NCBI RefSeq assembly: GCF_002214465.1
Contig: NZ_CP015101.1
Location: 1,185,013-1,249,012 of the forward strand
From: Thermococcus barossii
GTDB lineage: Archaea; Methanobacteriota_B; Thermococci; Thermococcales; Thermococcaceae
Direction of reading: 5' to 3'
DNA length: 64,000 bases
Translations under genes and position numbers: made by a program
Notes under the pieces: model-generated
The model's input: the letters and a program-made list of their open reading frames with translations, nothing else
Databases searched by the model: none
Told to the model about the DNA's origin: nothing
Part shown: positions 19,360-47,952 of the stretch, in pieces
How the letters are laid out: each line of letters opens with the position of its first letter
Numbering within the stretch: the first letter of the stretch is position 1

Positions 19360-20577
19360 ATGGATTACGTTCCCCTGCTTTTGGGGCTGGTTATGGGAGC
19401 CGTTACTTCGTACACTGACGTAAAGACCGGATTCGTTTTTGACAATCACATCTTTCCGACGCTCACTCTGATAGGAAAGCTCCTTGGATGGGAAGAGGAG
19501 GATGAGGAGGAAAGCCTTCCCGGGTGGATTCCCAAACTGATAATCCCCGCCGTTGAGGTCGGGGTGCTCTACTACCTTTACCTTGGGCTCAGCCAGGGAA
19601 ACACACTCCTGGCCGCCTCCGGCTTCATTGGTCTCATACTGGGCTTCGTTCTCGGGTTGCTTCTCTACTACCTCGGCGCATGGGCCAGCGGCGATGCCGT
19701 TATACTGGCGGGCTTCTCGGCTCTCCTGCCATACGCGCCGGCAACCGCATCTATCGTTGCGCCCTACACCGTTGAGTATCCCCTCTACCCCCTAACCATA
19801 CTGCTCAACAGCATCATCGCGATATTCCCCTTCATCTTCGTTTACGCCTTTGGGGTGCTCATCGCCAGAAGGAAGTTTGCCGAGCTGAGGGAGATATTCA
19901 CCGACAGGGCACGGCTTACCCTCGAAGTATCCCTCTGGATAATGGCCGCCCTCGGGCTGAGGCTGATAATCCGCGAGACCGTAGGGGTTTCCATCGTCGG
20001 GCTGTGGTCATGGATATTCACAATCGCCGCGATATACGTCTTCGGAAGGTTCAGGAAGGTAGGAGACGCGGTAGGAATCGGGGTTTTGGCGTACCTGGCA
20101 TATCAGGAACCAGTTACCACCGCGGAAGCGTTCCTGAAGCTCCTCGCCGTGCTGTACCTGTTCAAGGTCTTCTTTTCCCTCGTGAAGTTCATGCGCACCG
20201 AGGTTCTCATGGAAGAAGTAACTGTGGAGGAGCTCAGGGAGTGGGACATACTTGGCGAGACCGTCTTTGAGAAGGATGGAAAAATCCTCAGGGACAGAAA
20301 CGACGCCTTCACAAGGATAAAGAACGCCCTTCTAAGTGCGGACCTGGGAGCACTTCATCCGGATTACGGAAGGGTGATAGCTTCCTCAAGTGCCGAAGGG
20401 CTGAGCGGGGAGCAGATAGAAGAGCTGAAGCGGCTCGTCGAGGAGGGGATGCTTGAGAACAGCTTTCTGAGAAAGAAGTCCATGCCCTTCGCACCGGCGC
20501 TCTTCCTCGGCTTTCTGATAAGCTACTTCTGGGGCGACATCTTCTGGTGGATTCAGCTGAAGATAGCCGGGATGTGA
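19360..20577 (+). CDS. Prepilin peptidase (A24 family, EppA/FlaK-like)
   Basis: A 405-residue polytopic membrane aspartic peptidase. The two catalytic aspartates sit in SYTDVKTG (Asp20 region) and GAWASGDAVILAG (about residue 110), matching the GxGD-type A24 layout of archaeal preflagellin and prepilin peptidases. It should cleave the class III signal of pilins at the membrane; the immediately preceding mini-pilin gene supports this. It is longer than FlaK-like enzymes because of a cytoplasmic segment (about 285-375) of unknown role. AGGTGGAATC precedes the ATG. Confidence 0.85.
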   Translation: MDYVPLLLGLVMGAVTSYTDVKTGFVFDNHIFPTLTLIGKLLGWEEEDEEESLPGWIPKLIIPAVEVGVLYYLYLGLSQGNTLLAASGFIGLILGFVLGLLLYYLGAWASGDAVILAGFSALLPYAPATASIVAPYTVEYPLYPLTILLNSIIAIFPFIFVYAFGVLIARRKFAELREIFTDRARLTLEVSLWIMAALGLRLIIRETVGVSIVGLWSWIFTIAAIYVFGRFRKVGDAVGIGVLAYLAYQEPVTTAEAFLKLLAVLYLFKVFFSLVKFMRTEVLMEEVTVEELREWDILGETVFEKDGKILRDRNDAFTRIKNALLSADLGALHPDYGRVIASSSAEGLSGEQIEELKRLVEEGMLENSFLRKKSMPFAPALFLGFLISYFWGDIFWWIQLKIAGM

Positions 20578-20583
20578 GAAAAG

Positions 20584-20593
20584 CCTTTAAATC
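20584..20593 (+). promoter_or_regulatory. TATA box for the guide-RNA locus
   Basis: CCTTTAAATC just after the peptidase stop is a good Thermococcales TATA box. It lies about 25 nt before the 5' side of the H/ACA hairpin, which begins near 20611. Confidence 0.55.
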
Positions 20594-20610
20594 CGCTGCC
20601 GAACATCAAC

Positions 20611-20670
20611 CCGGCCCAACGTCCGCCCACCCCGCAGAGGAGTGAGGCGGGGGTTCCGGTCGGGCCAACA
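20611..20670 (+). ncRNA. Candidate H/ACA guide RNA (single hairpin)
   Basis: GGCCC (20613-20617) pairs with GGGCC (20662-20666) as lower stem. CCCCGC (20630-20635) pairs with GCGGGG (20647-20652) as upper stem. Between them is an internal pocket (20618-20629 and 20653-20661). The apical loop AGAGGAGTGAG has the GA/UGA pattern of an L7Ae-binding K-loop. An ACA box lies at 20668-20670, one nucleotide after the lower stem and about 14 nt from the upper stem, as in archaeal pseudouridine guides. Target not determined. Confidence 0.7.
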
Positions 20671-20728
20671 GGGGGATGACGAGCTTTTGCTTTGCTGAGC
20701 GGTGAGGAACACGCCCTTCACTGACCCC
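20671..20728 (+). ncRNA. C/D box guide sRNA
   Basis: Box C ATGACGA (20676-20682), a 12-nt guide, box D' CTGA (20695-20698), a 3-nt spacer, box C' GTGAGGA (20702-20708), a 12-nt guide, and box D CTGA (20721-20724). The ends GGGG (20672-20675) and CCCC (20725-20728) form the closing stem. Both guides are of exactly the length typical of archaeal 2'-O-methylation guides. It starts directly after the ACA box of the H/ACA RNA, and its 3' end overlaps the last codons of the convergent HAD gene. Confidence 0.8.
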
Positions 20729-21353
20729 GCTCTTCTATGAGGCCCCGGATTATCTCCATGACCTCGTGGAGGCTTTCAACGTTGTGGTCGCCCTCAACAC
20801 CCTCGTGCGGGTTTATGGCTATGCTCACATCGGCTTCCCTGAACATGCTCAGGTCGTTGAAGCCGTCCCCAACCGCTACGGTGAGTTCCGGTTTAAGCTC
20901 CTCCTTCAGCTCCCGGAGTATCGTCCCCTTGCTCTTGAAGTCAACGAGGGGATTGACCTTTCCGGTCACGAGGCCGTTCTCATCGAATATCAGCTCGTTG
21001 GCGAAGACGTAGTCAACTTCGAGCTCCCGCGCTATCCTCCCCGCGAGGCACATGAGCCCGCTGCTGAGTATCGCTATCCTGAAGTCGTTCTCCCTCAGAA
21101 ACCCGATGAGCTCCTTGGCGCCTTCCATGTACTCGACGGAGTTCGCCCATTCCACAATCTCGTCCCTGGTGTGTCCCTTCCAGAGGGAGGCGTCCAGCTC
21201 TGCCCATTCCACGTAGTCTATCCTCCCGGAGAAGAAAAGTTCGGCGTATTCCTTGCCCTTATCCCACGTTCCAAAGCGCTTGTGTAACTCCACCCAGCTG
21301 GAGACTGACTTGACCAGCGTTCCCTCAAGATCGAAGGCGATGAGCCTGACCAT
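20718..21353 (-). CDS. HAD-family phosphatase, phosphoserine-phosphatase-like
   Basis: A 211-residue HAD subfamily IB enzyme. Motif I is AFDLEGTLV, where the second acid is Glu rather than the usual Asp; motif II is ILSSGL; motif III Lys is in DFKSKGT; motif IV is VGDGFNDLSM. This resembles archaeal phosphoserine phosphatases, which release serine from O-phosphoserine, but the fold is also used on other small phosphates. Its last codons overlap the 3' end of a C/D box RNA on the other strand. Confidence 0.8.
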   Translation of the reverse strand: MVRLIAFDLEGTLVKSVSSWVELHKRFGTWDKGKEYAELFFSGRIDYVEWAELDASLWKGHTRDEIVEWANSVEYMEGAKELIGFLRENDFRIAILSSGLMCLAGRIARELEVDYVFANELIFDENGLVTGKVNPLVDFKSKGTILRELKEELKPELTVAVGDGFNDLSMFREADVSIAINPHEGVEGDHNVESLHEVMEIIRGLIEERGQ

Positions 21354-21392: not shown

Positions 21393-22241
<849 letters not shown>

Positions 22242-46662: not shown

Positions 46663-47952
46663 TCACGGCACCGGCACTCCAACGTCCTCGAAGAGCTTTA
46701 CAAGGTCGGGCTTGATCTCCTTGGTGACCGTCGCTGGATCCTCGTCGTTGAGAACTATCCTCTCGAAGGCCTGCTTGTAGTACTCCTTGAACTGGCCTCC
46801 CTTGTCTCCGAGGTTTGGTATCATGACAACGAGGGCATCCTTGGTGCTGGCCTGGGCCTGGACACCCTCAGCGAGTATCTTCAGCGGCCCCTCAGGCAGC
46901 TTTCCGCTGGCCTCTTCAACGGTCGGGAAGAAACCGACCTTCTCCAGAACCTTGACCTGGGTATCTGGCTTGGTCAGGTAGTCTATAAGCTTCCATGCCT
47001 CATCCTTGTGCGGTGCTCCCTTCGGTATGGCAAGGCCGGCGAGAACGACAATGAATCCCCTGCCCTTCGGTCCCCTCGGAACCGGAACAACGACGAACTG
47101 GTCTGGCTTGGTTTCGATGGCGTTCTTAATCCTTGCGGTGTGGTCCCAGGCTATGAGAACTTCACCCTTCAGGAGCGGGTCAGCCATGGCATCCCAGGTT
47201 GTGCTGGACGGGTGCACGTAGGGCCAGAGTTCCTTGAGGTAGTTCCACATCTCGACTGCCTCTGGACTGTCGAACTCCTTCGCCTGATAGCCGGTGTAGC
47301 TCGGATAGATGTATCCGTGGAGGAACCTGACGAAGAGCCCCTTCGGCCCGGCCGGGAAGCCGAGCTCGGGCTGTCCCTTGGCCTCTTTGAGGTTCTTGGC
47401 CCACTGGAGAAGGGCGTCGTAGGTCCACTTTTCGGTGCCCTTCATAACGTCCTCCTCGGTAAGCCCTTTCGGAAGGTACTGGAAGGCCTCCTTGTTAACG
47501 ACCATAACGTAGGTGGCGCTCATCCAAGGAACGTATGCCTTCTGGCCGCGGATGTAGGAGTACTGCTCAAAGGTGCTGATGAAGGTTCTTCCTTCAAGCT
47601 TGGGCATCGTGCTGAGATCCTCCAGCCAGCCCTTTGAGGCCATGTAGTCCATACCACCGTGGAGGTCGCCTATAACGTCGATGGTGACCTTTCCCGTCTG
47701 CATCTCGCCCTCAAGCCTCGTAACCATGTCCGTATAGGAAATTGGGACAAAGTTAACCTCGATGTTTGTCTCCGATGTAAAGCCCTTCAGAAGGTCCTCC
47801 TGGACGAAGGCCCTCTCCTCGGGCGGGTTCAGCTGGGTTGACAGAAACGTCACTGTTACTTTCTCTTCCCCTCCTGGGGAGATACAGCCACTGGACACTA
47901 CGGCGAACAACACAACAGCCGCCAACAGAACACCAAACAATCTCCTAATCAT
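46663..47952 (-). CDS. Sugar-binding lipoprotein of ABC transporter (MalE-like, family 1)
   Basis: 429 residues. Lipobox VVSSGC with Cys23. The mature part has the family-1 solute-binding pattern: VTVTFLSTQLNPPEE, IDVIGDLHGGMDYMAS, the hinge segment GEVLIAWDHTARIKN, and GLAIPKGAPHKDEAWKLIDY. It should bind an oligosaccharide or glycoside outside the cell; which one cannot be read from the sequence. It is the first gene of the operon; a minus-strand TATA (CTTATATATG, about 48005-48014) and an upstream palindrome at 48028-48044 form its promoter. Confidence 0.88.
   Translation of the reverse strand: MIRRLFGVLLAAVVLFAVVSSGCISPGGEEKVTVTFLSTQLNPPEERAFVQEDLLKGFTSETNIEVNFVPISYTDMVTRLEGEMQTGKVTIDVIGDLHGGMDYMASKGWLEDLSTMPKLEGRTFISTFEQYSYIRGQKAYVPWMSATYVMVVNKEAFQYLPKGLTEEDVMKGTEKWTYDALLQWAKNLKEAKGQPELGFPAGPKGLFVRFLHGYIYPSYTGYQAKEFDSPEAVEMWNYLKELWPYVHPSSTTWDAMADPLLKGEVLIAWDHTARIKNAIETKPDQFVVVPVPRGPKGRGFIVVLAGLAIPKGAPHKDEAWKLIDYLTKPDTQVKVLEKVGFFPTVEEASGKLPEGPLKILAEGVQAQASTKDALVVMIPNLGDKGGQFKEYYKQAFERIVLNDEDPATVTKEIKPDLVKLFEDVGVPVP

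Follow-up and report, generated by a model that had tools for sequence, protein, structure and literature searches.

The Thermococcus barossii locus analysed here is real and belongs, as an unexceptional case, to a known family of composite RNAs, in which an H/ACA guide and a C/D guide are joined in one gene. Taken as one reading together with cutting of the precursor and the rRNA targets named below, it is very probably the Thermococcus copy of snoR9, in which the C/D sRNA sR9 comes after the H/ACA guide Pab21 behind one promoter. The joined arrangement is already known and is catalogued as Rfam family RF00065. The only elements absent from the publications consulted are the target predictions for T. 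barossii, the match in T. kodakarensis between a circular RNA and the boundary at the ACA box, and the pattern of H/ACA loss among relatives. The snoR9 composite represents a clean and conserved case of one archaeal precursor for both rRNA modification systems.

The gene lies on the forward strand of a 64-kb window, the whole stretch of DNA that was analysed, between two convergent open reading frames whose family names are those given by the initial annotation: a prepilin peptidase on the 5' side (19360-20577, +) and a HAD-family phosphatase (20718-21353, -). The gap from the peptidase stop codon to the HAD gene holds a TATA box, then the H/ACA hairpin, and then the C/D RNA. The TATA box, TTTAAA at 20586-20591 (+), would be the shared promoter, with a transcription start expected at about 20609-20613. 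The initial annotation had placed the end of the C/D part within the final HAD codons, and the open reading frame coordinates bear this out, as the D spacer ends on the HAD stop codon and the D box (20721-20724) falls within those codons. A 5S rRNA gene stands alone nearby (22115-22236, -), the 16S and 23S genes being some 200 kb off.

The joined RNA gene matches the RF00065 (snoR9) covariance model at full length (model positions 1-128) over 20612-20738 (+). The score of 103.2 bits (E 6e-23 in the 64-kb window) exceeds the gathering cut-off of 90 bits, so the arrangement is not a product of chance, and a whole-genome search found one copy. In P. abyssi, Pab21 forms the 5' part of a transcript annotated as the C/D RNA snoR9, which RNA-seq annotation gives as a single 127-nt transcript (PMC4652768). 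Our genome scan placed the P. abyssi RF00065 match at 230449-230575 (-), the published transcript coordinates, and the match of an H/ACA-only model at 230517-230574, which is the published Pab21. Pab21 has been reconstituted in vitro as an active guide, and its K-loop is bound by L7Ae (PMC3726423). The Pyrococcus gene and the T. barossii copy have in common the order of units, the boxes, the guides, the lack of space between units and one upstream TATA box, whereas the T. barossii copy differs in its neighbours, an extra lower-stem mismatch and a variant C' box. The corresponding T. kodakarensis locus, sR01 or TKOcandSno19, lies, as in T. barossii, between the peptidase and HAD genes, with its start site upstream of the H/ACA unit and its C/D RNA released, but its junction from ACA to C box, CCGGGGG, is longer than the GGGGG of T. 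barossii.

The H/ACA guide, the Pab21 orthologue, occupies 20612-20671 (+) and scores 77 bits with the H/ACA-only model R1. All of its features lie on the same strand: a lower stem P1 that pairs 20613-20620 with 20659-20666, a 5' pocket guide UCCGCC (about 20622-20627), an upper stem P2 that pairs 20630-20635 with 20647-20652, a K-loop AGAGGAGUGAG at 20636-20646 that is the expected L7Ae site, a 3' pocket guide UUCC (about 20654-20657), and an ACA box at 20668-20670. The start of the pocket UUCC (20654) lies 14 nt from the ACA box (20668), within the approximately 14-16 nt usual for archaeal H/ACA guides. Related genomes retain both the pairing and the boxes, so the initial reading withstands the comparison that it had set itself. 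The K-loop core NGA...UGAN is kept in 47 of 47 distinct relatives, and the pocket UUCC and the ACA box in 46 of 47 each. The eight pairs of the lower stem and the six of the upper stem persist with few exceptions in the 47 distinct H/ACA sequences, and some change on both sides, for example from C-G to U-A or to G-C. In a 22-row alignment, 5 of the 14 pairs were altered on both sides, both stems covaried, 98.7% of cells were paired, and the covariation score was equalled by none of 500 shuffles. Single-sequence folding also favours the hairpin (z -2.4). The RF00065 match and the covariation therefore confirm the hairpin with lower stem, pocket, K-loop and ACA box that had been proposed for this stretch. 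The T. barossii lower stem carries an A.C mismatch (20618 x 20661), which occurs at that pair in none of the 47 relatives and counts against the main reading.

The C/D sRNA, sR9, follows at 20672-20728 (+), enclosed by a GGGG/CCCC closing stem (20672-20675 and 20725-20728, +) and belonging to the single RF00065 copy in the genome. On the same strand it comprises, in order, a C box AUGACGA (20676-20682), a 12-nt D' guide spacer (20683-20694), a D' box CUGA (20695-20698), a C' box (20702-20708), a 12-nt D guide spacer (20709-20720) and the D box CUGA, the order and spacing expected of archaeal C/D RNAs. The four boxes, two 12-nt guides and closing stem described initially are thus present, with the qualification that the C' box is the variant GUGAGGA. 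The two units do abut as had been claimed, but not strictly without space, a single G separating the ACA box from the GGGG. The guide cores, CUUUUGCUUU for D' and CACGCCCUUC for D, are invariant or nearly so across the family, and a reversed control pattern gave no match. For the C/D part by itself, minimum free energy folding gave no information (z -0.7), as is expected for C/D RNAs. In nine loci an insertion lengthens the D'-C' linker by about 11-18 nt (L041, L042, L045, L046, L048, L049, L050, L107, L108). The insertion forms a 5-6 bp hairpin in several genomes, with no clear hairpin in L107 and L108, and such a hairpin could convert the C'/D' K-loop to a K-turn capped by a stem.

Both C/D guides pair with 23S rRNA. 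With rRNA positions numbered from where the Rfam rRNA matches begin and the methylated base taken as that opposite the fifth nucleotide upstream of the D or D' box, the D' guide forms 11 bp and is predicted to direct methylation of G207 (1 of 300 shuffled guides did as well), and the D guide forms 10 bp with a predicted methylation at G55 (9 of 300). The H/ACA pocket can pair at several rRNA sites, and 23S U1317, within UA, is as good as or stronger than 16S U867. In the tested Pab21 substrate, a U directly follows the target U (PMC3726423). Positions 867-868 of 16S rRNA are UU, in the context GGAA-UU-GGCGGG, and U867 is preferred because it shares this feature with the tested substrate; it is the most likely candidate for the H/ACA target.

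The two halves differ in their distribution. The C/D RNA was present in 85 of 94 Thermococcaceae genomes, representing all six genera (84 by pattern, plus G047, with one guide change), and the families searched elsewhere in the phylum gave no C/D match. The H/ACA unit was present in 62 of the 94, always directly upstream of the C/D RNA, and was absent throughout genera g2 and g4 and from scattered members of g1 and g5. The H/ACA half is dispensable and has been lost repeatedly, since it is missing or reduced to a relic in many genomes that retain the C/D half, which is kept. Truncated or degenerate H/ACA relics precede an intact C/D RNA at L099, L100, L105 and L052, in varied stages of decay. 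Because their break points differ, the relics suggest several independent losses. In genus g4, the old TATA box now stands directly before the C/D RNA; in two other genomes (G042, G052) the C/D RNA begins right at the peptidase stop codon. The scattered losses offer natural comparisons, both for whether the pseudouridine is needed and for how the C/D RNA obtains its 5' end. Three genomes of 94-99% completeness (G022, G034, G043), of which G022 is a single-contig 1.5-Mb genome, had neither the C/D pattern nor a strong H/ACA match. A possible unlinked H/ACA copy in G093 (38.7 bits) has a pocket without UUCC and was set aside as another H/ACA guide, and weak second matches in G056 and G057 lack the C/D guides.

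Published RNA data from T. kodakarensis bear directly on the expression of the composite. RNA-seq identified a 62-nt circular RNA, sR01, which spans 47786-47847 and for which a start site is predicted at 47910 (PMC9014305). Genome G011 of our set is taken to be T. kodakarensis from the agreement of match coordinates. When mapped onto its sequence, 47786-47847 (-) coincides exactly with the C/D unit, and 47910-47848 (-) exactly with the H/ACA unit, which ends in UACAC; the published start site therefore lies upstream of both units, and the C/D RNA occurs as a separate molecule. The start at 47910 and the expected start in T. barossii hold equivalent relative places. On the opposing side, the circle is represented by 395 circular reads beside 2167 aligned reads; it was not confirmed by RT-PCR, and its junctions are given to within 5 nt (PMC9014305). 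The start site and the position of the circle fit one precursor split in two, and we infer that a single start site is also used in T. barossii. The initial suggestion that a single precursor yields both guides thus gains support from the published orthologues of P. abyssi (PMC4652768) and T. kodakarensis (PMC9014305).

We propose that the snoR9 composite would be transcribed from its one promoter and most likely cut just 3' of the ACA box, the exact site being our inference. The resulting H/ACA unit of about 60 nt would bind L7Ae at the K-loop and Cbf5 at the ACA box and pocket, and would guide pseudouridylation of 16S U867. The C/D unit, also of about 60 nt and partly circularised, would guide 2'-O-methylation of 23S G207 and G55.

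Eukaryotic composite scaRNAs such as U85 hold C/D and H/ACA domains together in one mature RNA. The snoR9 composite resembles them in having both guide types in one transcript, but its parts lie side by side and its C/D part is also found alone. Were the joined RNA to stay uncut in the manner of the scaRNAs, one bifunctional RNP would carry both activities, a reading that would suit the abutting units (C box 3-7 nt after the ACA box in 62 of 62 composites, all strong H/ACA matches) and the one 127-nt transcript annotated in P. abyssi (PMC4652768). We consider it improbable, given the circular C/D-only form of T. kodakarensis with its ends at the junction (PMC9014305) and the survival of the C/D RNA without H/ACA in many genomes, where it therefore works alone. 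Release of a C/D RNA from a longer RNA is also seen in archaeal dicistronic C/D sRNAs and tRNA-C/D fusions, in which, unlike snoR9, the partner is a tRNA, an mRNA or a second C/D RNA (PMC7994747).

A cut precursor leaves room for a further, rather doubtful role of the H/ACA unit as a processing signal, in which RNP assembly at the ACA box would determine the cut that forms the C/D 5' end. If so, lineages without the H/ACA unit would have needed another C/D 5' end, supplied either by the former promoter, now immediately ahead of the C/D RNA, or by an upstream mRNA.

A single promoter is also favoured by the composites themselves. In 61 of 62 composites, a TATA-like core is found 26-33 nt ahead of the lower stem, as compared to 10 of 62 when shuffled. 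No such core lies within the H/ACA unit or junction of any of the 62, or at 20612-20690 of the window, which upholds the earlier observation of one TATA box with no second between the units. That the two guides are separate genes and neighbours by chance, each with a promoter of its own and that of the C/D RNA situated within the H/ACA unit, is therefore very unlikely, even though the C/D RNA does stand alone behind a TATA-like element of its own in g4 and elsewhere; the T. kodakarensis RNA likewise has its sole listed start site upstream of the H/ACA unit (PMC9014305).

The overlap with the HAD gene in T. barossii, and the end of the C/D RNA near that gene in many relatives, would suit a C/D part whose main action is not that of a guide but antisense or terminator-like, directed at the HAD mRNA. 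This is hardly credible when both guides match 23S rRNA and do not vary even in genomes with an inverted cassette or in Pyrococcus, where it lies off the HAD gene. The Pyrococcus cassette is at another site, away from the HAD gene. The cassette has the orientation of the window in 65 genomes and is flipped between the same two convergent genes in 9-10 genomes, with HAD upstream and the peptidase downstream (L027, L028, L031, L035, L044, L053, L087, L089, L101 and probably L026).
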